Positions 26,853 through 52,526 of a stretch of DNA of 64,000 nucleotides are shown in pieces. The DNA comes from Paenibacillus sp. Soil522 (lineage in GTDB: Bacteria; Bacillota; Bacilli; Paenibacillales; Paenibacillaceae). The stretch lies in the NCBI RefSeq assembly GCF_001428245.1, contig NZ_LMRV01000033.1:2388-66387 (forward strand), given 5' to 3'. Below the pieces are notes generated by a model, which saw only the letters and a list, made by a program, of their open reading frames with translations, ran no database searches and had not been told where the DNA came from. The position numbers and the translations under genes are program-made. Positions within the stretch are counted from its first letter, which is position 1, and each line of letters starts with the position of its first letter.

Positions 26853-26978
26853 ATGTGAGGCCTAATAAAACTAGCTATGGAGGTTCCACTTATAAGTGCC
26901 TTTCTGTCATACACGAATACGGCATCAAAGGTCGCATAAATATGGGATATGAATGGTTTGTAGAAAGGAGTGAAATCA

Positions 26979-28472
26979 TTGAACATTACCAGAAGACCGT
27001 TTAGCCCTTCTCCGTCATCCGTTCCAGCTCATCAGTCACTGAATATTCCTGTTTGCCCAATTCCTTCATCTGAGATTATTTATCCTTGGACGCCGCTTGA
27101 GACAATGGAGAAAACCGACTACGACGTGATCATCGTTGGCACCGGGGCTGGAGGAGGCTCGGTCCTTTGGCGATTGGCCGAACAGTGGGGAAAAAACGGA
27201 AAACGTATCGATGTTATTGAAGCCGGAGACTATCTTCTGCCGGCAAATAAGTTCGATCTGCCTAATTGGCTTCCTCTTTGGGCCAATGTAGAACCGCCTA
27301 ATCCGCTGAACTGGGAGTCGATTCCGATTTTTCCGTCTGACCGTCTGGCGCCTCCGTCTCCCCTGCTTACAACCTTTGAACAAATACTCGCTTTAGGCGG
27401 CAGGTCAATCGAGTGGGGCATGGTAAGCCCCCGTATGAGTCCAGTCGATCTTGCAGGCTGGCCCGTCACCGAAAAAGAGATGAACATGTACTATAACATT
27501 GCCGAGGAACTCATGAATGTCAACCGGTCTTTTTATAGAACAGCTGAATTTCTTCTAGACCGGCTTCGCCAAAACGGCTTTCCTGAAGCGGCTAATAAGC
27601 CGGTGGCGATCAATATCCGGCCAACCGCAAATGGAGAGTACAATTCCACTCCCCGGTTTAGTACTATTTCGCTGCTCGCAAACGCCGCGAATCGACGGCC
27701 GTTCGATATCGCGATCAAGGCCCGCGCCGTTCAAGTATACGCCGAAAGAGGAAAAGTGGAAGGCCTCAAGGTCATGGATCGGGATAAGAAACCGTATTTC
27801 CTGAAATCCAAGGCCGTTGTCTTGGCCGCGAGCACATTTGAAACGCCGCGGATTTTGCTTAACTCGGCGATTCGCGGGGAAGCTATCGGCCATTACTTAA
27901 CGAACCATTCCTTTGCATATACGACAGCTAAAGTTGCGCCCAGTGATTATTCGCAAATTCCGGGACTTTATGCTGTTTATATTCCCCGTACGGCCGACCG
28001 GCCGTATCAGATGCAAATGCGCGGCTTCCCGCCGCTTGGCCAGGAGTTTGATATTCTTGCTTTGGGTGTGCTGGAATCGCGGTATGAAAATAGAGTCACC
28101 CTGAATCCCCTGAAGGTTGATGAATACGGGGTACCCGAACCAGTAGCTTTATTCTCGTTCAGCGGTACAGATCTGGAAGTCATCAGGCAAATGGAACAGG
28201 GCATGAAGCAGGCAGCGGAAGCCATGAAGGTTACGGTGGAACCCATTTGTGCTCTGCCCCTTGGGCTGGTCATGCACGATATGGGCACCTGCCGCATCGG
28301 TACTGATCCCTCTACTTCGGCAGCCAATCCTTATGGGCAGATACATGGAGTATCCGGCCTCTATGTCGCCTGCAGCAGCATGATTCCAAGCAGCGGAGCT
28401 GCAAATCCGTTCCTTACTATAACGGCCCTTTCCATTCGGACGGCGGATTATATCATCGAGCAAATGAAATAG
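26979..28472 (+). CDS. GMC-family FAD-dependent oxidoreductase
   Basis: A 497-residue flavoprotein. The dinucleotide-binding fold is VIIVGTGAGGGSVLWRLAEQ, followed by the ribityl-contact VIEAGDYLLP. The C-terminal GMC domain includes MGTCRIGTDPSTSAANPYG and SSGAANPFLTITALSIRTAD. GMC enzymes oxidise alcohols or sugars; close relatives are sugar or polyol dehydrogenases. TTG at 26979 is chosen because AAAGGAG lies 10 bases upstream, whereas the GTG at 26970 sits on top of the site. A broken second copy of the same N-terminus lies at 52210-52526. Confidence 0.88.
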   Translation: MNITRRPFSPSPSSVPAHQSLNIPVCPIPSSEIIYPWTPLETMEKTDYDVIIVGTGAGGGSVLWRLAEQWGKNGKRIDVIEAGDYLLPANKFDLPNWLPLWANVEPPNPLNWESIPIFPSDRLAPPSPLLTTFEQILALGGRSIEWGMVSPRMSPVDLAGWPVTEKEMNMYYNIAEELMNVNRSFYRTAEFLLDRLRQNGFPEAANKPVAINIRPTANGEYNSTPRFSTISLLANAANRRPFDIAIKARAVQVYAERGKVEGLKVMDRDKKPYFLKSKAVVLAASTFETPRILLNSAIRGEAIGHYLTNHSFAYTTAKVAPSDYSQIPGLYAVYIPRTADRPYQMQMRGFPPLGQEFDILALGVLESRYENRVTLNPLKVDEYGVPEPVALFSFSGTDLEVIRQMEQGMKQAAEAMKVTVEPICALPLGLVMHDMGTCRIGTDPSTSAANPYGQIHGVSGLYVACSSMIPSSGAANPFLTITALSIRTADYIIEQMK

Positions 28473-37398: not shown

Positions 37399-37548
37399 GA
37401 CGATACAATATAGCTGTTTATCTTAGGCTCCTTCATTAAAGCTCGCCTGACGATGCAATGTAGTGCGAGGATGAACTTTATGATAAAGTAACAAGTTCAA
37501 TGATTTAAATAATAACTGTTTTCCTGCTTCCTTCACCCTCGTACATGC

Positions 37549-37575
37549 ACTTCTAGGCCGTTGCCCACATACAAT
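37549..37575 (+). promoter_or_regulatory. Mother-cell (sigma-E/sigma-K type) promoter of sigK
   Basis: AC, 17 bases, then CATACAAT. The -10 element matches the sigma-E consensus (CATACANT) exactly, and the AC-N17-CATA layout fits the sigma-K consensus. It lies about 75 bp ahead of the sigK start. In Bacillus subtilis the sigK promoter is used by both factors, so this placement is what biology predicts. Confidence 0.7.
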
Positions 37576-37648
37576 GTAGAACTATGCTACTTGTGCGCTG
37601 GAGCAATAGCGAATGCATCCAGCAATTCAGCTTGGGGGTGTCCGGTTC

Positions 37649-38321
37649 ATGGGATTGTTTGCAGCTATCGCACTGTTCATTAAGCAACTGTCGCTTCTTG
37701 TGTCATATGTTAAAAATAATGCATTTCCTCAGCCGCTGCATGAGGACGAGGAAACGAAGCATCTTCAGCTAATGGCGGAGGGTAACGCACGCTCGCGCAA
37801 CCTGCTAATCGAGCATAATCTCCGGTTGGTCGCGCACATCGTCAAAAAATTTGACAATACAGGGGAGGATTTGGAGGATCTTATCTCCATTGGCACGATC
37901 GGCCTCATTAAAGCAATTGAAAGCTTCCAAACCGGTAAAGGGACAAAGCTCGCTACGTTCGCAGCTCGTTGTATCGAGAATGAAATACTTATGCATTTGC
38001 GCTCCTTAAAGAAAACCCGGAAAGACGTATCTCTTCACGACCCAATAGGTACGGACAAAGAAGGCAATGAAATTACGCTGATAGATATCCTCGGCACGGA
38101 GGCCGATGATATTGTCGATAAGGTGCAGCTGAAGATTGAGAAAAGCAAGATATATAAAAACCTCGATATATTGGATGACCGGGAGAAGGAAGTCGTGCGG
38201 GGATGAGCGGACGCAAAGGGAGATTGCGAAGGAGCTCGGGATCTCGAGGAGTTACGTTTCAAGGATAGAGAAAAGAGCGCTGATGAAGCTTTATCATGAG
38301 TTTTATAAGGCGAAGCGGTAA
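37649..38321 (+). pseudogene. sigK: sigK copy 1: promoter-proximal RNA polymerase sigma-K, frameshifted
   Basis: The late mother-cell sporulation sigma factor. The N-terminus ([10 protein letters not shown]...[12 protein letters not shown]), including the short pro-sequence, regions 2 and 3, and all residues to VV at 182-183 are intact. Then the DNA lacks 26 bp found in copies 2 and 3 (right after 38196), removing IGRFGLEHG of region 4 and shifting the frame to a TGA at 38204. The rest of region 4 ([27 protein letters not shown] region) is still encoded out of frame to 38321. Intact length would be about 232 residues. GGGGGTG precedes the ATG. Without the -35-recognition helix the product should not work. 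The assembly should be checked here. Confidence 0.9.
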
Positions 38322-38424: not shown

Positions 38425-38594
38425 GATTCTATATACAATGAAAGTTTTGAGGCTATGTCAGTGTCCATCTATTCAGGGCAAGGTCAATTCATAAATATAA
38501 GTCATTTGTCTACAATTTTCGACATACTTCTCAATCTCGAATGAATAAAATGAGTCTATATAAACTTGAGAAAGATGGGGGGCAAGCATGTAGT

Positions 38595-40844
38595 ATGATC
38601 AAAAAACTTAGTATTAAAAATGCAGCTACATATAATCATTTAGGTATTACGATGGATAGTTTAAAGAAGGTCAATTTCGTTTATGGAAACAATGGTACTG
38701 GAAAAACTACATTAACAGAATATCTACGAAGACCAGAAGTGTATCCTGAAAGTACCATGGATTGGAATGGTAAGGTACTTAAGATTTGTGTTTACAATCG
38801 AAATTTTGTGGATGAAAACTTTAGGATAGGTAATTCCATTAGAGGGATATTTACATTGGGTAAAGAGTCTGTGGAGCTGCAGTCTCAGATTACTGAACTT
38901 AGAGAGAAAATAAGAAAACATGATGAAGCAATTTTAAAATTAAAAGAGACAATTTCTGAAAAGAAATCCGTTTTAATTGGCATTAGTGATGATTTTAAAG
39001 ATTCATGTTGGGAGATAAAAAAGAGAATAGATGACTCTTTTAAAGAGTCGATTGAAGGAGTTAGAAATTCACGAGATAAATTTATGGCTAAATTTTTAGA
39101 GGAAGCCACAAATAATTCAAGAGAAATTCGTTCGCTAGAAGAATTGGGAAAACTCAAAAGCAGTCTCTACGAGTTGAAAGGTGAAATGATCAAAAAAAAT
39201 AACAGAATATTACTAGAGGAACGATTAGATGATGACCATATTTTCAGAAGAAAAATCATCGGAAAAGAAGATGTAGATATTGCTAAGTTGATTACAAAAT
39301 TACAAATAAGTGACTGGGTTAAACAAGGTCAAATTATTGTGAAAAAGACAGATGACGTATGCCCTTTCTGCCAGCAAACACTTCCATCTATGTTTGAGGA
39401 GAAGCTGAATTTATATTTTGATCAATCTTATATTGCTAACATTCAACGATTAGAGTTGATATCAAAAAAATATATTGAGAATGTAGAGAATGTAATCATA
39501 CAAATTGAATCCTTGTTGGATTACTCTAAAGGTGAGTTCACTAATAAACAAAAAATCGAGATTAGTCTAAAATTAATTAAATCGAAGCTTGAAGAAAACA
39601 AATTGTTAATTGAAGGTAAAATAAAGGAGCCCAGCAGAAGTATTGAGTTGGCAGAGATAGAGGCTTTGATTTTTGAAATAAATCAAGAAGTAAACGAATC
39701 CAATCAAAAGATTGATAAGCATAATAAACTAATTGAAAATATAAAAAATGAAAAAGAAAATCTGTCCAGAGATATATGGAGATACATAATCGAACAAAAT
39801 AACTCGAACTATCAAGCATTTATGAAAAAGAAAGGAGATATCGAAAGGGTAGTATTAGGATTAGAAAATAGTAAACAACAAAAAACAAATTTCAAGAATC
39901 AGTTTGAAGAAGATTTATATCTAAAGCAACAGCAAGTAACAAGCGTTGATCACTCCGTAGCCGAGATTAATAAGATATTACATTCATTTGGCTTTAAATC
40001 ATTTCGTTTGGCTTCCGCTGCTGAAAAAGGTAATTATAGGATTGTTCGAGAGAATGGTGAAGATGCTCATGACACCCTTAGTGAAGGCGAAAAAACGTTC
40101 ATCACTTTTCTTTATTTTTACCAATTGTTAAAAGGTAGTAATGAAATTAAGGATATACAGTCCGAGAAAATTGTAGTTATTGATGACCCCATTTCCAGTC
40201 TGGATAGTAGTGTTCTCTTTATGGTTAGTAGTCTTATTAGAAAAATAATTTTTGAAATAAAAGAGGATTCGTCCGATATCAAACAATTATTTGTTCTAAC
40301 GCATAATATTTATTTTCACAAAGAAGTTACCTTCAACCAAGGGAATAAAGGTTTCGGAGAAGCAACTTATTGGATATTAAGAAAGAATGATGACACAACA
40401 ACAATTGAGCCATTTCCTAAGAATCCAATTAGGACATCTTACGAATTACTCTGGAAGGAACTAAGGAATCCAAATAATTATAATTTTGTATCAATCCAAA
40501 ATACAATGAGACGAATTCTTGAGAATTATTTTAAATTCTTTGGCGATTCAAACATTGATGATCTTGAAAATGAGTTTGATAATGAAGAAAAAATGATTTG
40601 TCGTTCATTACTTTCCTGGATAAATGATGGATCTCATTCTATTAGTGAGGATTTATATGTAGAAAGTAACCTGGACATAGCAAGCAGATATTTGAGTGTC
40701 TTCAAGAGCATATTTGAAAAGAAAAATCATCTTGCTCACTATAGTATGATGATGAAGGAATTTGAGTTTGATGCAACTTCACAATCTCAAGTCGTTTCTG
40801 AAGTAACTGCTGGGATGAGAGAAGCAGCTGGTGCAACAGAGTAA
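38595..40844 (+). CDS. RloC/PrrC-like AAA ATPase (predicted anticodon-nuclease-type defence protein)
   Basis: A 749-residue AAA_13-type protein. Walker A is GNNGTGKTT (near residue 30). Long coiled coils flank a zinc-hook-like CPFCQQTL near 255. The ABC signature is LSEGEKTF near 494 and Walker B is IVVIDDPISSLDS near 524. The C-terminal region has MRRILENYF (near 637; an R-x3-E pattern) and SWINDGSHSI (near 679). That matches the Arg-Glu-His triad layout of PrrC and RloC anticodon nucleases, which cleave tRNA in phage-infected or DNA-damaged cells. The length fits RloC. The gene is strikingly AT-rich compared with its neighbours, a sign of transfer. The start at 38595 follows GGGGGG; an ATG at 38541 has no site. 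Confidence 0.82.
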   Translation: MIKKLSIKNAATYNHLGITMDSLKKVNFVYGNNGTGKTTLTEYLRRPEVYPESTMDWNGKVLKICVYNRNFVDENFRIGNSIRGIFTLGKESVELQSQITELREKIRKHDEAILKLKETISEKKSVLIGISDDFKDSCWEIKKRIDDSFKESIEGVRNSRDKFMAKFLEEATNNSREIRSLEELGKLKSSLYELKGEMIKKNNRILLEERLDDDHIFRRKIIGKEDVDIAKLITKLQISDWVKQGQIIVKKTDDVCPFCQQTLPSMFEEKLNLYFDQSYIANIQRLELISKKYIENVENVIIQIESLLDYSKGEFTNKQKIEISLKLIKSKLEENKLLIEGKIKEPSRSIELAEIEALIFEINQEVNESNQKIDKHNKLIENIKNEKENLSRDIWRYIIEQNNSNYQAFMKKKGDIERVVLGLENSKQQKTNFKNQFEEDLYLKQQQVTSVDHSVAEINKILHSFGFKSFRLASAAEKGNYRIVRENGEDAHDTLSEGEKTFITFLYFYQLLKGSNEIKDIQSEKIVVIDDPISSLDSSVLFMVSSLIRKIIFEIKEDSSDIKQLFVLTHNIYFHKEVTFNQGNKGFGEATYWILRKNDDTTTIEPFPKNPIRTSYELLWKELRNPNNYNFVSIQNTMRRILENYFKFFGDSNIDDLENEFDNEEKMICRSLLSWINDGSHSISEDLYVESNLDIASRYLSVFKSIFEKKNHLAHYSMMMKEFEFDATSQSQVVSEVTAGMREAAGATE

Positions 40845-41471: not shown

Positions 41472-41651
41472 ATGAATCGTCGAATACAAGATTTAAGTAA
41501 GTTCATCAAGCTTACTGGTGATCGAGCAAAGCTTGATGCTAAAGCAAACGGCACTTATATTGTATACAAAACGAATGACGGCCAATTTGTAAGAGAGTAT
41601 AGCAATGGTGAAATAGAACGGATTAATGAACAGGATCTTGAGCATGAGTGA
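41472..41651 (+). CDS. Small antitoxin-like protein next to a zeta-type P-loop gene
   Basis: 59 residues ([20 protein letters not shown]...), with the strong site GGAGGGGATG ahead of the ATG. Its stop overlaps the next ATG (ATGAGTGA), the coupling expected of a toxin-antitoxin operon. The following gene begins like a zeta-family kinase toxin. The small protein is therefore probably the antitoxin or an accessory partner, now without a full-length toxin beside it. Too short to be listed among long frames. Function is inferred from position. Confidence 0.6.
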
Positions 41652-42165
41652 GCCAATCGCAACTATGTTTGTGTTTGCGGGGAACAATGGGAGCGGTAAG
41701 AGCACGATTGGGACAATCGGTTTGATTAAAGCGATTGAGAGCTTCCAAACTGGAAAAGGAACGAAGCTCGCGACTTTTGCAGCTCGTTGTATTGAGAACG
41801 AAATACTGATGCACCTTCGTTCTTTGAAGAAGACTCGAAAGGACGTGTCTTTGCATGATCCGATTGGCACGGATAAGGAAGGAAATGAGATTACGTTGAT
41901 CGATATCCTCGGCACGGAGGCCGACGATATCGTCGATAAGGTGCAGCTGAAGATTGAGAAGAGCAAAATATATAAAAACCTCGATATATTGGATGACCGC
42001 GAGAAGGAAGTTGTTATTGGCCGCTTCGGGCTGGAGCATGGCGGGGATGAGCGGACGCAGCGGGAGATTGCGAAGGAGCTGGGGATTAGCCGCAGCTATG
42101 TATCGCGGATTGAGAAGCGGGCGTTGATGAAGTTGTATCATGAGTTTTATAAGGCGAAGAAGTAG
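41644..42165 (+). pseudogene. sigK copy 2: zeta-toxin N-terminus fused in frame to sigK 3' end
   Basis: A 173-residue hybrid frame. Residues 1-22 (start [15 protein letters not shown], then GSGKSTI) are the N-terminus and Walker A of a zeta-type toxin. From 41707 the frame is sigma-K from its residue 81 ([13 protein letters not shown]) to the natural end ([11 protein letters not shown]). The junction is in frame and both sides encode similar words around it, suggesting deletion through short homology. This copy keeps the IGRFGLEHG stretch lost from copies 1 and 4, and its sigma-K part is identical in protein to the others except for the last residue. The hybrid has no sigma N-terminus and should not be a working sigma factor; it also lacks the rest of the toxin. 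Confidence 0.85.
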
Positions 42166-42269: not shown

Positions 42270-43022
42270 TTAACTTAAGCAGCGATCCATGTAGTAAAGG
42301 ATTTGCTTCCTCCACCAGTACCAGTCATGATTGACATCGTACCCCCAAAATTCAACGCTTGCCGGGATGTGTTTCTCCTGCAGCACTTCCTTGAGCTTCT
42401 GCGTCTCCGATCGCATTAAATCTTCATGAGCGCCTTGGCCTGTGCAAATGATGATTTTGCTGTTCCTGTATTGATTCAGATAAAAAGCGTCCTCCAAGTT
42501 TCTTAAATAGTGAAGCGGTGAATGGAAATAAGCTGAAGGAGGGACCTCTTCTCCAAAAAATCGATTGGTCGAATACAAACCGCTTAAAGCAATTAAACTG
42601 TCAAAATATTGCGGGTGCCGGAAAAACATATTGGTACTGTGATAAGCCCCGAGCGAACATCCCGTCGCCAAGATCTTCTGCGTGCCTCCACCGTTGTTCT
42701 CTTTGCTTTGACGGAGAATGGAAGAAATGAGTTCATCTTTCACATAGGCATCATATTGGTCATGGAGTTTCATCTTCTCATCGGTCGTCGAGTTCTTGGC
42801 ATAAAAAGTCTCTTCGTCAATACTGTCGCATGTCCAAACTTGAATTTTTCCTTGTTCAATATAACTTTCCAACGTGCTGATCATGCCGGATTCCTCATAC
42901 TGATAAAACCGTCCGCAGGAGGTCGGAAAAACAAGTAAGGGCTTCCCTTGATGTCCGTATATTTTGTATTCCATGTCCCGATGCAAGTTGCCGCTATATA
43001 CTTTGTGATAGGTTACTTTCAT
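42270..43022 (-). CDS. Esterase family alpha/beta hydrolase
   Basis: A 250-residue cytoplasmic esterase of the PF00756 type. The nucleophile elbow is ATGCSLGAYHS (Ser in GCSLG), with the acid and His supplied late in the chain (HEDLM region and VNHDWYWW). It overlaps the upstream ATP-grasp gene by 4 bp, so the two are co-translated. No signal peptide is seen. Pairs of such an esterase with an ATP-grasp ligase occur in other Bacillota, which points to a shared ligation/hydrolysis task, but the substrate is unknown. Confidence 0.85.
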   Translation of the reverse strand: MKVTYHKVYSGNLHRDMEYKIYGHQGKPLLVFPTSCGRFYQYEESGMISTLESYIEQGKIQVWTCDSIDEETFYAKNSTTDEKMKLHDQYDAYVKDELISSILRQSKENNGGGTQKILATGCSLGAYHSTNMFFRHPQYFDSLIALSGLYSTNRFFGEEVPPSAYFHSPLHYLRNLEDAFYLNQYRNSKIIICTGQGAHEDLMRSETQKLKEVLQEKHIPASVEFWGYDVNHDWYWWRKQILYYMDRCLS

Positions 43023-44206
43023 GAGAACACCTTGATTCTATTTTCCACTGCATGAATATAAGCTGTAATTTGTTTCACTTTATCAAAGTCCTTTGAACGA
43101 AATTGATACGCATAATTTCCTCTAGATTGGCTTTGCACATCCGTAATGCTGTCGTGTTTGACAATTTCATGATGATATCGCTGCATGATCTCTTCGTGCT
43201 CATGAGCGTAGGTGAGGTGGTTTTTTTTACTGGCAAACCCGGTATAATACTTACCGGCAAAAGGTCCTTCCACCTGATTGTTAACAATCATATTCGCCCA
43301 TAGCTTGTAAATATCGATATCGTAAGTGAAGTTGATCGCATCCGTCATCCACGTACCCGGCGGCCTCATATTGACTTCTAACGCAATAATATTTCCATCT
43401 GCATTGGATTTAAAAAACTCGAGATGAAAAAAGCTTTCTTTGATCCCATAGGTTCGAATGATCCTTCTTCCGGATTCCTCGATTTCCTTACTTACTTCCT
43501 TTAAACCATAATAGCTGAAATGATTTCCAGAATTTACGGTATCCATGATGCTATGCGGAAATTCGTGGCTTGCTGCGAATACGATTTCTCCATCTTTGTT
43601 GACAAGACCGTCGTAGGTTAGCAAGACGCCGTCTATAAACTCTTGCATAATAAATTCGACTTCCGATGGTTTGGTATGCAAGAAATGCTCCAGCTCCGAC
43701 TCGCTCGCGAGTTTGTAAGTCATGTTCGCTCCCACGCCTTGATTTGGCTTTACGACGACGGGATAGCCGATCTTCTCGATAAATTTTTTTGCCTTCACCC
43801 GATGGAATTTCGTTATGGAACGTATGGACTCGACCTCGCTTTTATTGAAAAACTTTTCCATTTTCGATTTTTGTTTTAAATTGGATATAAAATCGAGCTT
43901 CGTACCGAAAATGTTGAAATCCGTTCGAATGCGCGCGTCAAGATCCAGCCAATGCTCGTTAAGTGATTCAAAACGATCGATTTTACCATATTTATGGGTA
44001 TAATAACCGACCGCGCGCAGAACCTCGTCGTAATTTTCCAGACGATTAATTTTGATGTACTCCGTAAGGGAATTTTTCAGTTTTTCGTTGAGATCGTTAT
44101 AATCTGCATCGCCGATGCCAAGCACATTCACTCCGCAGTTTTTCAAGTGAAAGCAGAATTCGGTGCAGTACTTTGGGAAATTCGGCGAGAAAAAAATAAA
44201 GTTCAT
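43019..44206 (-). CDS. ATP-grasp domain protein
   Basis: A 395-residue ATP-dependent carboxylate ligase-like protein. The N-terminal pre-ATP-grasp fold (MNFIFFSPNFPKYCTEF) is followed by the ATP-grasp parts: a nucleotide-binding Lys in GYPVVVKPNQGVGANMTYKL, the hinge EFIMQEFIDG, and the metal-binding FFHLEFFKS and ALEVNMRPPGTWMTDA. It is first in a two-gene operon with the esterase. The products of such ligases range from peptides to modified cofactors; nothing here fixes the substrate. Its promoter lies in the gap to the branching enzyme, which is transcribed divergently. Confidence 0.87.
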   Translation of the reverse strand: MNFIFFSPNFPKYCTEFCFHLKNCGVNVLGIGDADYNDLNEKLKNSLTEYIKINRLENYDEVLRAVGYYTHKYGKIDRFESLNEHWLDLDARIRTDFNIFGTKLDFISNLKQKSKMEKFFNKSEVESIRSITKFHRVKAKKFIEKIGYPVVVKPNQGVGANMTYKLASESELEHFLHTKPSEVEFIMQEFIDGVLLTYDGLVNKDGEIVFAASHEFPHSIMDTVNSGNHFSYYGLKEVSKEIEESGRRIIRTYGIKESFFHLEFFKSNADGNIIALEVNMRPPGTWMTDAINFTYDIDIYKLWANMIVNNQVEGPFAGKYYTGFASKKNHLTYAHEHEEIMQRYHHEIVKHDSITDVQSQSRGNYAYQFRSKDFDKVKQITAYIHAVENRIKVFS

Positions 44207-44438
44207 CCTTTTTGTCCCCCTCAGACTCCAGTTTTGAAATTTTATCCTAAAGATTCCATGATTTCAAGAAAATATATTGTAAAGATCATATGATGAGCTC
44301 CCGTTTTTATTGAATTAATGTTAAGGGCAGGAGTGTTTAACTACTGGGCGAATAATTCTTTATAGAGAAAGAGAGAACGCACCAAGAGATGCTGCAAATG
44401 TACCATAGATACAATAGATACAATAGTGAGGTGTGACT

Positions 44439-46415
44439 ATGGAAGTTGCGACGATAAACGAATCATTAAAAATTTTGGAGATTGACCAGTGGCTGGCACC
44501 GTTTGAGGGAGACTTGCGGCTACGGATGTCGGAATTTGAGCGGACGAAAAATCGGCTGTTGAGTGGTGAAAATCAGACACTTTCGGATTTTGCGAATGGC
44601 TACAAATATTTCGGTTTTCATCAGGACGGCGACAGCTGGACTTTCCGTGAATGGGCGCCGAATGCGGAGATGATGTATCTGGTCGGCGATTTCAACAGCT
44701 GGAATGGGCTTTCGCACGAGATGACGCGGCTGAATGGCGGTGTTTGGGAGCTGCGCATGCCGGGCAGCCTACCAATCGGCTCGAAGGTTAAGGTTCAACT
44801 GATCGTGGATGGTGAGCCGCTCTATCGCGTGCCGAGTTACATCAGCTACGCCATACAAAATGATAATTATCAATTTGATGGTGTGATTATGCAGCCAACC
44901 TATCAGTTCAAAAATGCCGCGCCCGACCTGTCAACTGAAGCGCCGCTGATTTATGAGGCGCACATTGGTATCTCTTCAGAGGAGCATAAGATCAATAGCT
45001 ACGAGGAATTTACGCGCGACGTGCTGCCGCGGATCAAGGCGGCTGGCTACAACACCATCCAGCTGATGGCGATTATGGAGCATCCGCTCTACGCGAGCTT
45101 CGGCTATCAGGTATCAAATTTTTATGCAATCAGCTCCCGTTTTGGAACGCCTGACGAACTGATGGAATTGATCGACACAGCGCACGGGCTGGGGCTGCGT
45201 GTCCTATTAGACGTCGTCCATTCGCACGCGGTGAAAAATGTGGGCGAAGGACTGAATTTATTTGACGGCACGACGTCGCAATATTTCCACGAGGGCGATC
45301 GCGGAGAGCACGAGGCTTGGAACACAAAGCTTTTTAACTATGGCAAGGACGAGGTCATTCATTTTCTGCTATCGAATCTGAAATTTTGGCTCGAAGTTTA
45401 TCATTTTGACGGCTTCCGCTTTGACGGCGTGACGAGTATGCTTTACCACCATCATGGGCTCGGGACGGGCTTTGACAGCTATGAGAAATATTTCTCAATG
45501 GATAAGGACATCGAGGCAATCGTCTATCTGATGCTCGCAAATGAGCTGATCCGCGAGGTCAATCCATCAGCGCTGACGATTGCTGAAGATATGTCTGCGA
45601 TGCCAGGTATGGCGCTCCCGCTGGCTGATGGTGGCATTGGATTTGACTATCGTCTGTCCATGGGCATTCCTGACTACTGGATCAAGCAGCTCAAGACGAA
45701 ATCGGATGATCAGCTGAACCTGATGGGGCTTTGGTGGGAGCTGACGACGCGGCGGCCAGGAGAGAAAAATATCGGCTATGCGGAAAGTCACGATCAGGCG
45801 CTTGTCGGCGACAAGACGCTCATGATGTGGCTCGCGGATGCTGAGCTCTACTGTTCGATGGATGTTCATTCGCAGTCGCTGATTATTGACCGTGCGATCG
45901 CGCTGCATAAAGTTTTGCGGCTTGTCACTTTTTCGCTTGCAGGCGAGGGCTATTTGAACTTTATGGGCAATGAATTTGGCCATCCTGAATGGCTCGATTT
46001 TCCGCGCGAGGGTAATGGCGACTCGTTTGACCATGCGCGGCGGCAATGGTCGCTTGCGACCAATCCAGAGCTTCGCTTTCAGTATTTGCTCGATTTTGAC
46101 AATGCGATGATTGCGCTGGAGCACGATTCAAAATTTTTACAGAAGACCGCAAGCCTGCAACAGAAGTGGATTCAAAACGACGATAAATTGCTAGCCTACC
46201 AGAAGGGCGATTTGCTCTTTGCTTTCAATTTCCATCCGACGGACACGAAATTTGTCAGTTTTGACTCAACGCCTGTTGAACTGATTTTTGATACGGACGA
46301 CGCGCGTTTTGGCGGTTTTGGACCGCGCTCGCAGTTCAAATGGGCGGCTGGTAAGCTCGAATTACAGCTCGCTAGCCGTACGGCGATGGTGTTTAGGGTG
46401 ATGTATCAGTTGTAA
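44439..46415 (+). CDS. Eukaryote-type 1,4-alpha-glucan branching enzyme (GH13)
   Basis: A 658-residue branching enzyme with an N-terminal CBM48 domain ([21 protein letters not shown]), the GH13 barrel and an all-beta C-terminus. The nucleophile Asp is in [16 protein letters not shown], the acid Glu in [11 protein letters not shown], and the third Asp in [13 protein letters not shown]. The [11 protein letters not shown] and SMLYHHHG words mark the eukaryote-type subfamily rather than the usual bacterial GlgB. It forms alpha-1,6 branches in glycogen. No other glycogen gene is nearby, so it is probably cargo. GAGGTG lies ahead of the ATG at 44439; an in-frame GTG at 44433 is less likely. Base use differs from flanking genes. 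Confidence 0.9.
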
Positions 46416-46423
46416 AACTCAAA

Positions 46424-46460
46424 TTACATTGGGTTGTGTTCATAACGTCAAAAAATTCGA
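46424..46460 (+). other. Putative attachment arm at sigK copy 3
   Basis: A 37-bp sequence beginning TTACATTGGGTTGTGT and ending CGTCAAAAAATTCGA recurs at 51120-51156 with three or four single-base differences. Only the final part (CGTCAAAAAATT, 46446-46457) is also present in sigK copy 1. The preceding part therefore belongs to the element, and the shared 12 bp may be the crossover core. Confidence 0.6.
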
Positions 46461-46953
46461 CAATACTGGTGAGGATTTAGAGGATTTGATTTCGATCGGA
46501 ACGATCGGTCTAATCAAAGCAATCGAGAGCTTTCAGACCGGTAAAGGTACGAAGCTTGCTACATTCGCCGCTCGTTGTATTGAAAACGAAATACTTATGC
46601 ATTTGCGTTCCTTGAAGAAAACACGGAAAGACGTTTCACTTCACGATCCGATCGGCACGGATAAGGAAGGCAATGAAATTACGCTTATAGATATCCTCGG
46701 TACGGAGGCCGATGATATTGTCGATAAGGTGCAGTTGAAGATTGAGAAATCGAAGATATATAAAAACCTCGATATATTGGATGATCGCGAGAAGGAAGTC
46801 GTCATCGGCCGTTTCGGGCTCGAACATGGCGGTGATGAGCGGACACAGCGGGAGATTGCGAAGGAATTGGGAATTTCGCGTAGCTATGTATCGCGGATTG
46901 AGAAGAGGGCGCTGATGAAGCTATATCATGAGTTTTATAAGGCGAAGAGATAA
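46446..46953 (+). pseudogene. sigK copy 3: intact 3' portion of sigK without 5' end
   Basis: Encodes sigma-K from VKKF (residue 65) to the natural C-terminus (YHEFYKAKR) with no frameshift and with the IGRFGLEHG stretch present. The open frame extends upstream to a TTG at 46429 that adds only GCVHN, so no sigma N-terminus or pro-sequence is present. In the 29 codons at 46507-46593 it differs from copy 1 (37901-37987) at 15 positions, all synonymous. If joined to the 5' half of copy 1 at the shared core it would give a complete 232-residue sigma-K. Confidence 0.92.
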
Positions 46954-47039: not shown

Positions 47040-47273
47040 TCAAGCTAAGTGCGACACTTCGGCCATTAAAGATACGTGAGCGGACTTCCAGCCCAGACAT
47101 TTTTGAGGAGGGTTGTTAATTAGGCGAATGGCATCAGCCAATTCCTCATCACTGACCTCTGTGAAATCGTGTCCCTTGGGAAAGAACTCCCACAGGAGAC
47201 CATTGCCGTTTTCGTTGGAGCCTCGTTGCAAGGAAGGAATACGGTCCGCGAAGTAGACGCAGGAAAGAAGCAA
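47040..47273 (-). pseudogene. IS30-family transposase C-terminal fragment
   Basis: The minus strand encodes VYFADRIPSLQRGSNENGNG, then LLWEFFPKGHDF, and a LINNPPQKCLGWKSA ending, the hallmark C-terminus of IS30-type DDE transposases, including the catalytic Glu region (NENGNG). Upstream on this strand the frame breaks down within a few codons and no DNA-binding domain is seen. A remnant, not a working element. Confidence 0.8.
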
Positions 47274-47323
47274 AGCGAATCGTTTGTTTTAAGACCATCT
47301 ACAGATAGCTCTATGCAGGTCTT

Positions 47324-47520
47324 CTTGCATCGGGTGAGATTCGTCTTTTGCAACAAAAAGGGAAGAGCCGTAAATCTACGGAAACACGAGGCCGTTTCCT
47401 TGTTGGTACTTCAATCAGCCAGCGCCCCAAAGAGGTTGGTAAACGGAAAACGTTTGGTCATTAGGAACTCGATACAGTGGTATCCAGCCGTGGCAAAAGC
47501 AAAGCTTGTGCTACCAAGGC
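47324..47520 (+). pseudogene. IS30-family transposase middle fragment, opposite strand
   Basis: The plus strand encodes ETRGRFLVGTSISQRPKEVG, then KRKTFGH, a stop (TAG in place of the usual Trp), and ELDTVVSSRGKSKACATK, which is the central catalytic part of IS30 transposases. It faces the C-terminal fragment at 47040-47273. The two pieces come from one family but lie in opposite directions, so an inversion or two separate insertions took place. Confidence 0.75.
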
Positions 47521-47547
47521 GATGTCTACATCAGCGTAGACATCGCC
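47518..47547. repeat. Perfect inverted repeat at junction of IS30 and permease fragments
   Basis: GGCGATGTCTAC and GTAGACATCGCC form a perfect 12-bp stem around a 6-base loop (ATCAGC). It lies exactly where the IS30 fragment ends and the permease fragment begins, as expected of a palindromic rearrangement junction. There is no T-run. Confidence 0.75.
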
Positions 47548-47673
47548 AAATTTCCGGGTTTATCCGCATGGATGGCGCTGGCCGTGCTCGTTGCCGGTCC
47601 GATGATGTTTGTGTTTCCTTTTTTCCAGATAGAAATGATGCAAGCTGGTGATGCGCTGCACCTTTGGAACTGA
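47521..47673 (+). pseudogene. Sugar ABC permease C-terminal fragment
   Basis: The plus strand encodes VDIAKFPGLSAWMALAVLVA then GPMMFVFPFFQ, which matches the last membrane segment of MalG-type sugar permeases. The expected KYFVKG ending is replaced by unrelated codons up to a stop at 47671. No start is present. A stray fragment within the debris zone. Confidence 0.55.
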
Positions 47674-47790
47674 TAATTAATGGCACTAAAATACGATTTA
47701 GTACGCATGTTCTTGTTACTAGTTCGAGTATATTGTTTGGCAATTATGGAAATACCTAAATCTAGTAATCATTAGAGGAGGTGTGGTTGG

Positions 47791-47880
47791 TTGATAGATA
47801 TTATGAGTATATTAAGCACTCTTTTTCAAAAATCATATAACACTCGGGGCCAAGTCCACGCAACAGGAGAGAACCGATGA
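47791..47880 (+). CDS. Short leader frame coupled to dehydrogenase gene
   Basis: 29 codons starting at TTG behind a strong AGAGGAGGTG site. The first ~18 residues (MIDIMSILSTLFQKSYNT) come from AT-rich DNA, and the rest (RGQVHATGENR) from GC-rich DNA continuous with the next gene. The stop overlaps the dehydrogenase ATG (ATGA). It looks like the truncated start of a resident gene into which the GC-rich gene was inserted, and which now drives its translation. Confidence 0.5.
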   Translation: MIDIMSILSTLFQKSYNTRGQVHATGENR

Positions 47881-48752
47881 CCGAAAGGAGCTTTGAGACG
47901 GCCACGGATGCGCTGCAGGCTACTGCAATCATCACCGGCGGGACCGGCGGCATGGGGCTAGCAACGGCAAGACTCATGGGTCACGACCACCGAATCGTGC
48001 TGGCAGACCTCGACCAGACGCGCCTCGATGATGCGGTGCGCGAGCTGGCCATGGCCGGAGTTAAAGCAATTGGCGTGGTTTGCGACATCACCGACAAGGC
48101 ATCCGTCGAGCAACTGTTTCAGCGCGCGGAGTCCGAAGGAAGTCACGTTCGTGCAGTAGTCCACACCGCTGGAATCAGTCCGCACATGGGTACGGCTGAA
48201 CGCATTGCCCGCATAAACGCAACCGGCACCGTCAACATTGCGCAGGCATTCTTCGCGCGGGCTGCCGACGGTGACGCACTCGTCAATGTGGCATCAACCG
48301 CCGGGCATAGCATTCCCAAGCTCCTCATCCCGCTCCGTGCTTTCCGCCTTGCCGAGCAACGACCCGACGACTTCGAGAAAGCAATCGTCAGTCGCGCGAG
48401 GTTCGTCGGCCGAAAGCTGAAACCCGGACTGGCCTACGCGATCAGCAAGAACTTTGTCCACTGGTACAGCCGTTTCCTTGCGGCCAGGTTCGGCGAGCGA
48501 GGAGCCCGGGTTGTTTCTATCTCTCCAGGGAGCTTCGATACAGCGATGGGGCGTCTAGAGGAGAACCACGGCGCAGGCGACCTAGTGAAGTCGGCAGCAA
48601 TCAAGCGATTCGGCAAGCCCGAGGAGGTCGCGGCTGTTATCGCGTTCTGCGCAAGCGAAGCACCCGGCTACCTGACTGGGGTCGACATCTTGGTTGATGG
48701 GGGCACCAAGGCTGGGCAAGAGTTTGCAACGGCTCAGAAAAGGGCTCTGTAA
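47877..48752 (+). CDS. GC-rich short-chain dehydrogenase/reductase
   Basis: A 291-residue SDR. The cofactor fold is ITGGTGGMGLATARL with the downstream LADLDQ suggesting NAD preference, the Asn-Ala region is VHTAGISPHMG, the catalytic Ser is in VNVASTAGHS, and the Tyr-Lys pair is in YAISKNF. It ends with the usual GYLTGVDILVDGGTKAG. Its high GC and codon use are unlike the surrounding DNA and recall actinobacterial genes, so recent transfer is likely. The substrate is unknown. It is coupled to the short frame upstream. Confidence 0.88.
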   Translation: MTERSFETATDALQATAIITGGTGGMGLATARLMGHDHRIVLADLDQTRLDDAVRELAMAGVKAIGVVCDITDKASVEQLFQRAESEGSHVRAVVHTAGISPHMGTAERIARINATGTVNIAQAFFARAADGDALVNVASTAGHSIPKLLIPLRAFRLAEQRPDDFEKAIVSRARFVGRKLKPGLAYAISKNFVHWYSRFLAARFGERGARVVSISPGSFDTAMGRLEENHGAGDLVKSAAIKRFGKPEEVAAVIAFCASEAPGYLTGVDILVDGGTKAGQEFATAQKRAL

Positions 48753-49137
48753 AGCGACGCGTAGCCGACCTACTCGACCGGTGTTGCACAGGAACGGAGT
48801 TCCTTCCCCCGCCACGCTCAGAGGTGGCGAAGCGCCCTTGGAGTGGGCAGACGTGGAGGGTACGCCGCTCCGGCGATTGAAGACACCGCCCGGCGGCTGA
48901 AAGCCGCGCCAAGGCTTCGTTACTTGCGGAAATCGCGGCATATATCGAAAAACATAGGGACGGGACGGCGTGAGCTGCCCCGTTTTTCTTATTATCAGCC
49001 GCCCGGAATCGCCGCATATGGCGTTGTAGGACGTCGGGAATACGTTCCTGCGCAAAAGAAAAGACGCCGTATAAGGCGCCTATAAAGTCGTGGGCAAATG
49101 CCATTCCGTTAGTAATAAAAGCCTGTACTCCCTGTCA

Positions 49138-49155
49138 ACTCAACACATGTTGAGT
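49138..49155. promoter_or_regulatory. Operator-like palindrome
   Basis: ACTCAACA-CA-TGTTGAGT is an 18-bp perfect palindrome with a 2-base centre, typical of TetR-type operators. A ribosome binding site (GGGAGGAC) and TTG start follow, but the frame ends after ten codons, so the regulated gene is probably lost. Confidence 0.5.
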
Positions 49156-49204
49156 GTAGTACGGATATAACGGGAGGACATTGAAAAGTAACTGCTTGAA
49201 CAAG

Positions 49205-49231
49205 GTCTGCTGAGAAAGCAGGCTTTTTTTT
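49205..49231 (+). terminator. Terminator
   Basis: GTCTGCT pairs with AGCAGGC (two G-U pairs) around GAGAA, followed by eight T. Confidence 0.75.
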
Positions 49232-49428
49232 ATGAACTATCCTAAAGAGTTAATAGTTAAAATAAGAGTTGAATGGTAACCACATTGATAGCAAGCATTA
49301 AGTTGCTTTCCCCTCAGCGATGGAGGTATTTTCATTCGAACATAGAGGATTGATGTTGGTTATAGTATTATGGATAATAGAACAACCGCCTCAATAGGTA
49401 GTTATTAATATAGAACAAGGAGTAGTAC

Positions 49429-49998
49429 ATGGCCTGGAGCAAATTGAAACAAAATCTGGAGAGTTTTCTCTGTCCTGCGTTATATGGAAGGGTCGAATAC
49501 CGTGCAACGAGCTACCGTTATTTACCCGATAAAGCAGGGCTTTGTTATATTGCAGTAGATAAAAAGAACGTACTTAATATGAGTGATACAACTAACTTAA
49601 TCAGATGGTATCAGACGGAGCTGGAAATTAAGAATGATTCAGATATCCAAATTCCTATCAACAATGAAGAAATTGAAGCAGTCAGAAAAGATACCAAGGG
49701 GATAGTTCCGGAGGATCGTCTAAAAGTAATTGTAAGAAGTAGAAAAAAATCAGAATATGCAAAGGAGCTTTTGTCGGCACAGTCATCATTAAGTAAATCA
49801 AATTTTATCGTTATAGCTAATAAGTTTTTATCCATTTCTATAGAGGAAAGCATAGAGAGCAATAATATCTTATTGAATATTCTAGCTTTGGTGGACAGAC
49901 GAGCTGGAAAAAAGCGAATTTTAAATATGAGCGAGAAGATGAAGTTAAAGCATCCAATTGTGCAGTATTTTTATGAACTACGGCTTAGTACGTTATGA
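49429..49998 (+). CDS. SF0329 family conserved protein
   Basis: A 189-residue protein of a conserved Bacillota/Proteobacteria family of unknown function. Typical words are WSKLKQNLESFLCPALYGRV, EYRATSYRYLPDKAG and ALVDRRAGKKR, and it ends ...HPIVQYFYELR. It has no signal peptide or membrane segment. AAGGAG lies about 9 bases ahead of the ATG. It appears intact within the debris zone, which suggests recent arrival or some selection. No function is claimed. Confidence 0.8.
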   Translation: MAWSKLKQNLESFLCPALYGRVEYRATSYRYLPDKAGLCYIAVDKKNVLNMSDTTNLIRWYQTELEIKNDSDIQIPINNEEIEAVRKDTKGIVPEDRLKVIVRSRKKSEYAKELLSAQSSLSKSNFIVIANKFLSISIEESIESNNILLNILALVDRRAGKKRILNMSEKMKLKHPIVQYFYELRLSTL

Positions 49999-50079
49999 AA
50001 ATAAATTACTCATTCACCTTTACCAGGGGCTGCTTTTTCTTTTACTCATTATACAGATATCTGTATTGGCGGAAATAGT

Positions 50080-50110
50080 AAAGAGGGGCGAAGAACCCCT
50101 CTTTTTGTTT
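50080..50110 (+). terminator. Terminator after SF0329 gene
   Basis: AAAGAGGGG pairs with CCCCTCTTT across CGAAGAA-type loop, followed by TT-rich sequence. Confidence 0.7.
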
Positions 50111-50152
50111 TTAGAAATGTTATCGTACAATGATGTTATTTAAACAAAAAAA

Positions 50153-50713
50153 TCAGATTACTTCCCTGCTATCTTCGAAACTGTTTCGATTCAAATAAAA
50201 ATATATTAAATTATCTCTAAGTTCAATTTCCCTTTTGAATCCTAATTTCCTCAATAAACTAATTGACCTTTCATTCTCTGGTTCAACAGTTGCATCAATA
50301 ATCGTTAGTCCCATTTTTGTATATCCGAAATCAATTACTACTTTCATTACTTCAGAGATTAATCCTTTGCCCCAGTATCACTTAGATAAATCGAATCCGA
50401 CTTCTGCTATAAAGACATCATTCGTTTTTCTTAAATAGTGGTATCCACATGTACCGATTAAACTATTATTGTTTTTGTCAAACAGCCCCCACCGACAGCC
50501 CGAATCCTCTAGATGAAATCTAATAATTTCCTCAGCTTCTTTTATATCCTTACATGATTCAATATCCATAAATCTTGTAATTTCTTCATCTGAGAAATGT
50601 TTAAATACTGCTCTGGAATCTTGTAGTGTTAAAAGCCTAAGATTTAGTCTTTCTGTTTCTAATGAAGGAAACTCAACTTTTCTATTGACCGACACAATTC
50701 CTGGCCCCCTCAT
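50153..50713 (-). pseudogene. GNAT-family (RimJ/RimL-like) N-acetyltransferase with nonsense codon
   Basis: The N-terminal part (VEFPSLETERLNLRLLTLQD through FIAEVGFDLSK) and the C-terminal part (YWGKGLISEVMKVVIDFGYT through LLRKLGFKREI) are in the same frame and would make a 186-residue acetyltransferase, but a TGA separates them just before the acetyl-CoA-binding YWGKGL motif. A point mutation is enough to explain it. The residual N-terminal product would lack the cofactor site. Confidence 0.85.
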
Positions 50714-50809: not shown

Positions 50810-51141
50810 TTGTCAAAGCATAAGGCTTGGCTTGAGGTAAAGACCTTACAAGCAAGAAAACAATCAGAAAAGCAAGTGCAGTTACTTCAAAGGCGCATTA
50901 AAAAGTTGAAGGAACTTAATACAAGCTTAATTAGACTGTTGGCTAGCGGTATGATTTCAGAGACGGAATATAAGGAAGCAACGGAGAGTGGAAATGCAGA
51001 ACTGTATAGCCTAGACCAGTTAAAAGGCTTCCAGTCTCTACAAGGGAATAAAAGTTTGGAAGAAAGTATTGTTAGATTGAAGAAAGAAGGGACGAACTGG
51101 ATTGAGTTCACGTTTAGTTTTACATCGGGTTGTGTCCACAA
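50810..51141 (+). pseudogene. Tail of a large serine recombinase-like gene fused to sigK copy 4
   Basis: About 110 codons: a charged coiled coil ([20 protein letters not shown]), the phrase [15 protein letters not shown], and an ending that runs into sigK without a stop. This resembles the C-terminal coiled-coil region of large serine recombinases, which usually end next to their attachment site. The catalytic domain and zinc ribbon are missing. The assignment rests on composition and position, not on a conserved active site. Confidence 0.55.
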
Positions 51142-51156
51142 CGTCAAAAAATTCGA
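51120..51156 (+). other. Putative attachment arm at sigK copy 4
   Basis: Second occurrence of the 37-bp arm seen at 46424-46460, starting TTACATCGGGTTGTGT. The CGTCAAAAAATT core is at 51142-51153. It overlaps the end of the recombinase-like frame. Confidence 0.6.
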
Positions 51157-51630
51157 TAATACAGGGGAAGATCTGGAGGATCTAATCTCGATCGGTACGA
51201 TTGGATTGATTAAGGCAATCGAGAGCTTCCAAACCGGCAAAGGCACGAAGCTCGCGACGTTCGCGGCTCGTTGTATCGAGAATGAAATACTTATGCATCT
51301 GCGGTCGCTTAAGAAAACTCGGAAGGACGTTTCTTTGCATGACCCGATCGGCACGGATAAGGAAGGAAACGAAATTACGCTTATAGATATCCTCGGCACA
51401 GAGGCCGATGATATTGTCGATAAGGTGCAGCTGAAGATTGAGAAAAGCAAGATATATAAAAACCTCGATATATTGGATGACCGGGAGAAGGAAGTCGTGA
51501 GCATGGCGGGGATGAGCGGACGCAGCGGGAGATTGCGAAGGAGCTTGGGATCTCGCGGAGTTATGTTTCAAGGATAGAGAAAAGGGCGTTGATGAAGCTT
51601 TATCATGAGTTTTATAAGGCGAAGCGGTAA
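51142..51630 (+). pseudogene. sigK copy 4: 3' portion of sigK with a 19-bp deletion
   Basis: Encodes sigma-K from VKKF (residue 65) through EVV identically to the other copies. It then lacks 19 bp, starting at the same codon as the 26-bp gap of copy 1, and the frame shifts; the rest of region 4 continues out of frame to the natural stop at 51630. In the serial-integration model this would be the oldest, native 3' end. Its 3' end shares GTTTCAAGGATAGAGAAAAG with copy 1 rather than with copies 2 and 3. Confidence 0.88.
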
Positions 51631-52125: not shown

Positions 52126-52526
52126 CTAATTTACGGCCTGGAAAACGTTGTCAAGAGCGAGGATGATGGATACCTCACGGTCTTCCGGAACGTATTTCCC
52201 TACGACATCGACATTGCCGAATTTGAGCTTGTAGACTTGTTCCCCGATAAGCGTCGTAATATTGCCTGAATGAGTGGGAAGCAAGGCATTCCAGCCTCTA
52301 TGACGCCGATCCGTTTGCCTTCCCGCCCCCATTGCTCGCACAAACGCCAGAGCGCGGCACCGCCTCCGGCGCCGCTGCCGACGATGAGCACGTCGTAATC
52401 CGTTTGTTCCATTTTATCGATGGGTATTAGAGGTATCCGGCTGTCTAGATAATCAGGTCCTTCAACGGATGAGAATGGTGGCAGCGCAGGCTGAGCAGCC
52501 GGTAATTCCGGCGGTGGAAGCACCAC
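52126..52526 (-). pseudogene. GMC oxidoreductase N-terminal remnant
   Basis: The minus strand encodes MEQTDYDVLIVGSGAGGGAA, then LWRLCEQWGREGKRIGVIEAG, which closely parallels the N-terminus of the intact GMC gene at 26979. One base is missing after EAG; in the other frame the sequence goes on as DALLPTHSGNI. After that the similarity ends, and about 43 codons of unknown origin run to a stop at 52126. Only the FAD-binding start survives. Confidence 0.8.

Follow-up and report, generated by a model that had tools for sequence, protein, structure and literature searches.

The sigK locus of Paenibacillus sp. Soil522 carries, behind one promoter-proximal gene, three further co-oriented 3' halves of the same gene. 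We consider it probable (roughly 0.7) that this array is a scar record of successive insertions of large serine recombinase (LSR) elements at one sigK site, near codon 78. Two or three insertions would be recorded, namely those that left the orphan 3' halves c3 and c4, each with an attR arm, and probably a third that left c2, where the arm is missing. The DNA analyzed, referred to as the window, is a stretch of 64,000 nt (contig 33, positions 2388-66387) of a 6.4-Mb draft assembly (G000; 120 contigs, 99.9% complete). Its closest named matches are Paenibacillus species, and the genus set used for comparison comprised 51 genomes. The features of the array are the following.

37541..37579, plus strand: sigK promoter-like segment, GTACATGCACTTCTAGGCC..CACATACAATGTAG
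37613..37840, plus strand: 5' half of sigK copy c1, likely start ATG 37649, the sole 5' half in the assembly
37841..37854, plus strand: core GTCAAAAAATTTGA, at the attB position, codons 77-81 in 244-codon numbering
37841..38321, plus strand: 3' half of c1, frameshifted by a 26-bp deletion at 38196/38197
38541..40844, plus strand: AAA_13 ATPase, cargo (Pfam PF13166, E 3.3e-175; PADLOC PDC-S06, E 2.1e-258)
41472..41704, plus strand: cargo remnant, a small ORF (41472-41651) and an N-terminal fragment of a zeta-toxin-like kinase fused into c2
41705-42165, plus strand: orphan 3' half c2, with an intact region 4 but without its first ~50 bp and attR arm
42270-43022, minus strand: esterase, cargo (Pfam PF00756)
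43019-44206, minus strand: ATP-grasp protein, cargo (Pfam PF13535)
44433-46415, plus strand: branching-enzyme-like protein of the alpha-amylase family, cargo (Pfam CBM_48/Alpha-amylase)
46424..46446, plus strand: attR arm of c3, TTACATTGGGTTGTGTTCATAAC, 21/23 to the consensus arm
46447-46953, plus strand: orphan 3' half c3, intact, starting at the core
47877..50713: c3-c4 interval with an SDR dehydrogenase, an SF0329-family protein and a GNAT acetyltransferase (Pfam)
50810..51142, plus strand: probable LSR C-terminal remnant, reading in frame into c4
51120..51142, plus strand: attR arm of c4, TTACATCGGGTTGTGTCCACAAC, 22/23 to the consensus arm, a zero-mismatch pattern match
51143-51630, plus strand: orphan 3' half c4, with a 19-bp deletion at 51498/51499

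The sigK copies of the window and of the genus

In the front copy, c1, the 5' half, core and 3' half are contiguous, and sigK is not split by an element in the window. Its promoter-like segment, with a CATACAAT box that we take to be of the SigE/SigK type, recurs 5' of the split 5' half in four relatives (G372, G358, G371, and G362) and 5' of an element-borne sigK in two others (G212 and G364). The c1 ORF (37613-38206) passes into another frame after ..EKEVV at 38196/38197, which affects region 4, and alignment with c2 and c3 places the cause in exactly 26 absent bp, as a sequence-only reading of this DNA had proposed. Relative to the complete sigK of G024, the identity of c1 switches from 97% before the core (221/228 over the 5' half) to 84% from the core on. 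Among the 65 3' halves compared, c1 is closest to c4 (12% different), whose 19-bp gap has the same left edge as the gap in c1; the latter may have been copied from c4 and then lengthened by 7 bp. The frameshift looks like either a strain-level lesion, by which the strain may have lost SigK, or an assembly error.

The three orphans all lie downstream of c1 in the same orientation. A 300-nt block (84%) and a 128-nt block (80-82%) recur in three copies between 37400 and 47600, and on these blocks their likeness is not chance. The window's 3' halves differ mutually by 10-17%. As proteins, c3 and c4 are 98% identical to the intact SigK of G024, and c2 is identical to it at residues 93 to 243, with its final ~110 alignment columns free of mismatches against the complete G024 gene. 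That c3 is a complete 3' half behind the same core, such that a crossover with c1 would yield a complete gene, was also correctly foreseen: the two cores lie 8,606 bp apart and, by arithmetic, a gene joined there would run to 232 codons from ATG 37649, c2 being the closer repair partner for c1. The window likewise holds no intact recombinase, as had been claimed, its only trace being the probable LSR C-terminal remnant. This remnant itself had no Pfam match; among the fetched loci it resembles only one (L159, in G006; 69% identical), where a weak PF07508 remnant (E 2.3e-5) lies 368 bp away from the similar region. Beyond the window, the 5'-half search found no second sigK 5' half, and hence no intact sigK, in the assembly, and a Pfam search of the draft returned no PF07508 match. 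An intact sigK elsewhere, which would have made the lesion harmless, and an LSR elsewhere, two prospects raised by the sequence-only reading, are thus both missing from the assembly. The attL pattern had no match in G000 either, and the lone 5' half runs straight into sigK.

Similar arrays are common in the genus. With the c1 protein as query, sigK was matched at E 1e-60 in 49/51 genomes and at least twice in 20/51, the extra copies mostly starting at query residues 71-79 (exceptions, 59-67 and 88). The 60 stretches fetched from part of the genus genomes, together with the window, provided 37 front copies and 49 core-reaching 3' halves (47 orphans and two that belong to the split genes of G020 and G038). 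Thirty-four of the 37 front copies are complete and stop-free behind the likely start; the other three are split at residue 127 (G021, another insertion site), split at residue 78 (G038), and frameshifted (the window copy). The region-4 spacing, measurable in 35 of the 37, is normal in 34 and abnormal in the window copy alone, the remaining two front copies being split genes. The 5'-half search gave exactly one match in 49/51 genomes and zero in the two least complete (84% and 63%). All further copies on the contig of the front gene are downstream and co-oriented (37/37 with short-query-range copies left out, 41/41 with these included).

The 3' halves also bear marks of exchange. For 45 of them, the nearest relative lies in the same genome in 24 cases and in another genome in 21, a mixed picture; in G050, the front gene and an orphan are near-identical for ~250-300 columns from the core and then diverge. 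Such mosaics indicate that the copies do recombine. A common downstream neighbor that would mark the native end of the arrays was considered and rejected, given that downstream DNA differs between most genomes and is common to only a few pairs (G024/G014 and G049/G001). At L138, in G001, a short ORF located ~1.2-1.5 kb behind the front sigK terminates in a stretch resembling the sigK core, an orphan fragment that is absent from the main search listing.

Attachment sites and intact elements in relatives

Directly before the core of the 3' halves lies a 23-nt arm (TTACATCGGGTTGTGTTCACAAC or close variants), which is present at 15/23 or more matches in 40 of the 49 core-reaching 3' halves, offset by one base in 2 more, and missing from 7. 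None of the 37 front copies has it (4-10 of 23 matches). The DNA upstream of the arm, compared in 48 sequences, is mostly unrelated between copies, with some related pairs. Across the family, the arm-plus-core pattern occurs in 75/394 genomes, with 0 matches to a reversed-pattern control in every row, and relatives of the G020 LSR occur in 32/394 at E 1e-70, five of these being only ~34% identical. The LSR end adjoins the arm in G020, G125, G358, G371, and G362, with a similar junction in G281 and G160. Its placement is not uniform: the LSR lies ~1.5 kb from the arm in G372, and in G136 and G188 it sits in reversed orientation at the 5' half. The opposite element end, attL, consists of the inverted arm behind the sigK 5' half. 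Joining the left side of attR to the right side of attL inside their common GTCAA gave an attP with 23/25 inverted-repeat matches in G372 and 16-18/25 in G358, G371, and G362, while the joined host flanks gave one continuous sigK ORF in all four, restoring the core sequence. On these reconstructions, the 23-nt arm is one half of a near-palindromic attP, so that c3 and c4 sit behind attR scars. The core shared by the window's copies had been suspected to be a recombination site, and the intact elements, which split sigK at that very core, bear this out; insertion at the core of codons 77-81 with a shared attP arm is what we found for the sigK-targeting LSR elements of the family. Within the genus, the attL pattern matched the split gene of G020 and, with 3 mismatches, G030, where no sigK match is listed. 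It had no match in any array genome of the genus, but it missed the true split of G038, so the stronger evidence is that every array genome has a single 5' half, which runs on into sigK.

A complete sigK stands beside the split 5' half in seven relatives (G372, G358, G371, G362, G212, G364, and G281). Ten splits have no second complete gene (G020, G038, G120, G204, G128, G136, G188, G181, G160, and G279). All elements with a complete sigK come from other genera of the family, and no genome of the window's genus holds one inside an intact LSR element. The first four relatives have the order split 5' half, complete sigK, cargo, LSR, arm, and 3' half. The start codon of their element sigK lies 62 nt (G372) or 53 nt (G358, G371, and G362) behind the core; between the two lie the attP half-arm and a GGAGG-like ribosome site, leaving little room for a promoter, and the element gene apparently depends on the promoter of the host sigK. 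Its identity to the split halves is 80-87% as protein and 71-77% as DNA where aligned. G212 and G364 have their complete sigK behind the LSR, preceded by a promoter-like segment. In G281, the 5' half is followed after 7 kb by a complete sigK and, after another 43 kb, by the LSR with the 3' half. DNA identity is 96% between the two 5' ends of G281 and 78% between its 3' ends, which suggests exchange between the 5' ends. Judged by coordinates, G305, G282, G337, and G208 (two contigs) look similar. The G337 locus (G337:C12:743155-773691) has two split 5' halves, one 524-aa LSR match, and one complete sigK in 31 kb, and possibly represents stacked insertions.

These elements outline how a scar array could form. 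A sigK-bearing, skin-type element with an LSR would insert at the core (codons 77-81) and split the resident gene, whose role the element's complete sigK would take over. The duplicated 5' ends would then recombine homologously, removing attL, and the LSR where it lies between them, so that each round would leave a single complete sigK, part of the cargo, and an orphaned attR arm with its 3' half. Repeated rounds would build a co-oriented array, and homologous exchange among the 3' halves would make mosaics of them. The front gene c1 would later have gained its 26-bp deletion, possibly from c4, unless the assembly is wrong there. Such a collapse predicts one 5' half, co-oriented orphans, attR without attL, and unrelated cargo. 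It further predicts that orphans were once functional, in line with a median dN/dS of 0.014 between orphan and front gene against 0.017 between front genes across species (65 ungapped, stop-free copies; 26 orphan-front pairs, 24 with a finite ratio), values drawn from a set biased toward intact copies and with synonymous sites near saturation between species. We infer the collapse itself, for which no before/after pair was found; G125, whose one 5' half belongs to a complete sigK and which has additional 3' halves, one of them next to an intact LSR, is plausibly a state past collapse and before loss of the LSR.

Several observations stand against the scar record, among them that the sigK-bearing intact elements all come from outside the window's genus. 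The switch in the identity of c1 falls at the core, a position not predicted by a collapse at any point of the 5' half but expected from gene conversion by the orphans. Nine of the 49 copies, two of them by a one-base offset, lack the arm in register, as does c2, where it is missing. The 3' halves and the cargo have not moved as one block, and some pairs of complete and split 5' ends are only 71-73% identical and would be poor substrates for collapse. The comparison with G024, described below, is not a clean one.

Cargo of the array and competing explanations

The interval with the esterase, ATP-grasp, and amylase genes measures 4,272 bp in the window, G024, and G050 alike. Aligned from 41705, this cargo block is 97.7% identical in G024 and 96.5% in G050, and its last 2 kb before c3 reach 99.8% and 99.3%, respectively; in long matches, the genes that lie 12-19 kb upstream of sigK show 71-77% identity to those of the two genomes. 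The sigK 5' half of G050 is 74% identical to c1 (155/209). In G024, identity is 97% for the 5' half and 86% for the end of the upstream gene, so the sharing with G024 extends beyond the cargo alone and G050 is the cleaner comparison. The block lies directly behind the front gene in G024 and G050 but behind c2 in the window, from which the c1-c2 interval, with its AAA_13 gene and zeta-like fragment, is probably a later insertion in the window's lineage. Beside this near-identical block, the 3' halves are only 82-88% identical and mosaic, a pattern by which their recombination is separate from the cargo.

The AAA_13 ATPase is a candidate member of the phage-defense family PDC-S06. In the fragment fused into c2 (fusion ORF 41626-42165), 22 residues are 86% identical to a 201-aa protein of G039, and for both we presume the kinase name "zeta-like". 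A P-loop kinase at L123 (3545-4147), behind the front sigK of G039, is presumably of the same zeta-like kind; it lies <4 kb behind 8 sigK copies, recurs in 5 genomes, and is perhaps part of a stabilizing toxin pair. No recurrent cargo recombinase was recognized by eye among the 20 listed protein clusters, of which one (G008 and G018) resembles what we take to be an IS30-type transposase and the widest (7 genomes) are large chromosomal-type genes. Elsewhere in the window, 47040-49400 is a patchwork with a minus-strand transposase-like fragment (by eye) and a foreign-looking SDR gene. A GMC-type oxidoreductase-like gene (by eye) lies upstream of the array at 26970-28472, and an inverted N-terminal fragment of a similar GMC-like protein lies downstream at 52200-52526.

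Four other explanations compete with, or qualify, the scar record. The sequence-only reading had offered a skin-like developmental switch, in which programmed excision during sporulation joins c1 to c3 (or c2). The core is indeed common to the true split genes of G020 and G038, and c2 and c3 are intact in region 4, yet we regard such a switch as highly improbable. For excision, attL, attR, and the LSR must all be present; the lone 5' half lacks an attL junction, and the assembly has neither an attL pattern match nor a PF07508 LSR. The attB-like core of c1 is paired only with attR-type sites (c3 and c4), and attB x attR is, to our knowledge, not a known LSR reaction. Further, 34/37 front copies of the genus set are complete genes that need no excision. 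With neither LSR nor attL, only homologous recombination could rejoin sigK. Of the two routes to repair once proposed, homologous exchange of c1 with c2 or c3, to which the mosaics lend credence, could restore the frame, whereas a trans-acting recombinase lacks an LSR in the assembly and site-specific c1-c3 rejoining is not expected. A quite different possibility is that the 26-bp gap is an assembly or sequencing error among four similar copies and that sigK is intact. The draft state of the assembly (120 contigs), the likeness of c1 and c4 around the gap, and the position of c1 as the sole abnormal front gene among 35 measured make this a substantial possibility, though not the one we favor, given that 3' halves 10-17% different should separate reads over most of their length and that the 19-bp gap of c4, with its shared left edge, makes a real common lesion plausible.

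The remaining two explanations concern how the arrays spread, and we think each of them unlikely. Cassettes carrying only a 3' half might integrate at the core and restore the gene end, with an LSR acting in trans. This would fit the repeated unit of arm, 3' half, and mostly unrelated cargo, the cargo block common to different species, and the arrays in PF07508-free genomes (e.g., G007, G008, G009, G018, G024, and G050). The intact attP, however, is a two-armed near-palindrome, so that arm plus 3' half amounts to attR rather than attP, and some intact relatives carry whole genes. Nor did a free element with a lone sigK 3' half appear among the matches in phages (80 records, all <60% identity), plasmids (41 records, 3 at 60-80%, the best, at 77%, annotated as sigK), or 27 viral-contig loci, most of which are gene pieces split near residues 107-124 or 152-157; only 2/27 (L196 and L201) have the window's core, as an LSR followed by an attR-like junction. 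Alternatively, homologous recombination alone might have spread units of arm and 3' half after one ancient insertion, the 500-bp 3' halves serving as homology arms. The mosaic 3' halves, the G050 pair that diverges away from the core, and the 24/45 copies with their nearest relative in the same genome all accord with this, but it leaves unexplained why LSR, complete sigK, and orphans occur together in G212, G305, and G281.

Among these matches, the IMG/VR contigs L196 (881-2765) and L201 (1604-3341) run from an LSR through the attR-like junction to sigK residues 75 to ~155, with a second recombinase-like match beyond the sigK piece on the other strand, so that sigK is seemingly interrupted twice. 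The best plasmid match, a 75-kb record of Bacillus licheniformis (NZ_CP021671.1), has its annotated sigK and four matching places.

Comparison with known sigK elements

Beyond the scar record itself, we give even odds to a broader proposition, that these elements serially own sigK: a complete, sometimes promoterless copy would capture the host promoter at attL, displace the resident gene, and leave a datable orphan scar, with candidate defense and toxin-like genes as cargo. Element-borne complete sigK, found in 7 relatives, is absent from splits such as those of G020 and G038. The textbook picture, set by skin elements, is that the mobile element has to be excised before its host can sporulate. 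If the proposition is true, bringing along a replacement gene would be a second way around the interruption of sigK, the stray 3' halves of sigK found in many of the genus genomes (20/51 with a second match) would be explained, and an insertion history could be read at one site. For annotation, orphan sigK pieces are likely scars and not spare genes.

The open-access literature yielded no Paenibacillus sigK with a serine recombinase, no skin element with a complete sigK copy, and no LSR-disrupted gene beside an intact copy, each of which is weak evidence of absence; titles and opening lines of abstracts there held nothing pertinent on Paenibacillus sigK pseudogenes in sporulation. In C. difficile skin, the LSR gene lies immediately upstream of the sigK 3' part, an order also seen in G020 and G038 (PMC5025042). 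Prophages are described in sigK of Alicyclobacillus MMB025 and, as cited there, in C. perfringens (phiS63), likewise by site-specific insertion; the excerpt of that account mentions neither a replacement sigK nor orphan arrays for them (PMC13141910). Other recombinase-bearing elements sit in sporulation genes, namely gin in gerE (PMC5595907) and yin in yabG (PMC10747680); their target is restored by excision.

Other parallels exist. Islands that restore a gene end, as at the icd, prfC, and trmE sites, integrate without loss of target function; these bring the end of a gene, whereas some of the family's elements bring a whole gene and scars accumulate. SCC cassettes of staphylococci also combine a serine recombinase with tandem arrays and members without a recombinase, but they have a different target, and each sigK scar is a 500-bp gene half. 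Skin itself, in Bacillus subtilis and Clostridioides difficile, is, like the elements of this family, an LSR element inside sigK. Unlike skin, the family's elements share a core at codons 77-81, and several of them bring a complete sigK, so that excision would be unneeded; and the window, in turn, holds scars only, with a sigK that is not split, no LSR, and no attL.
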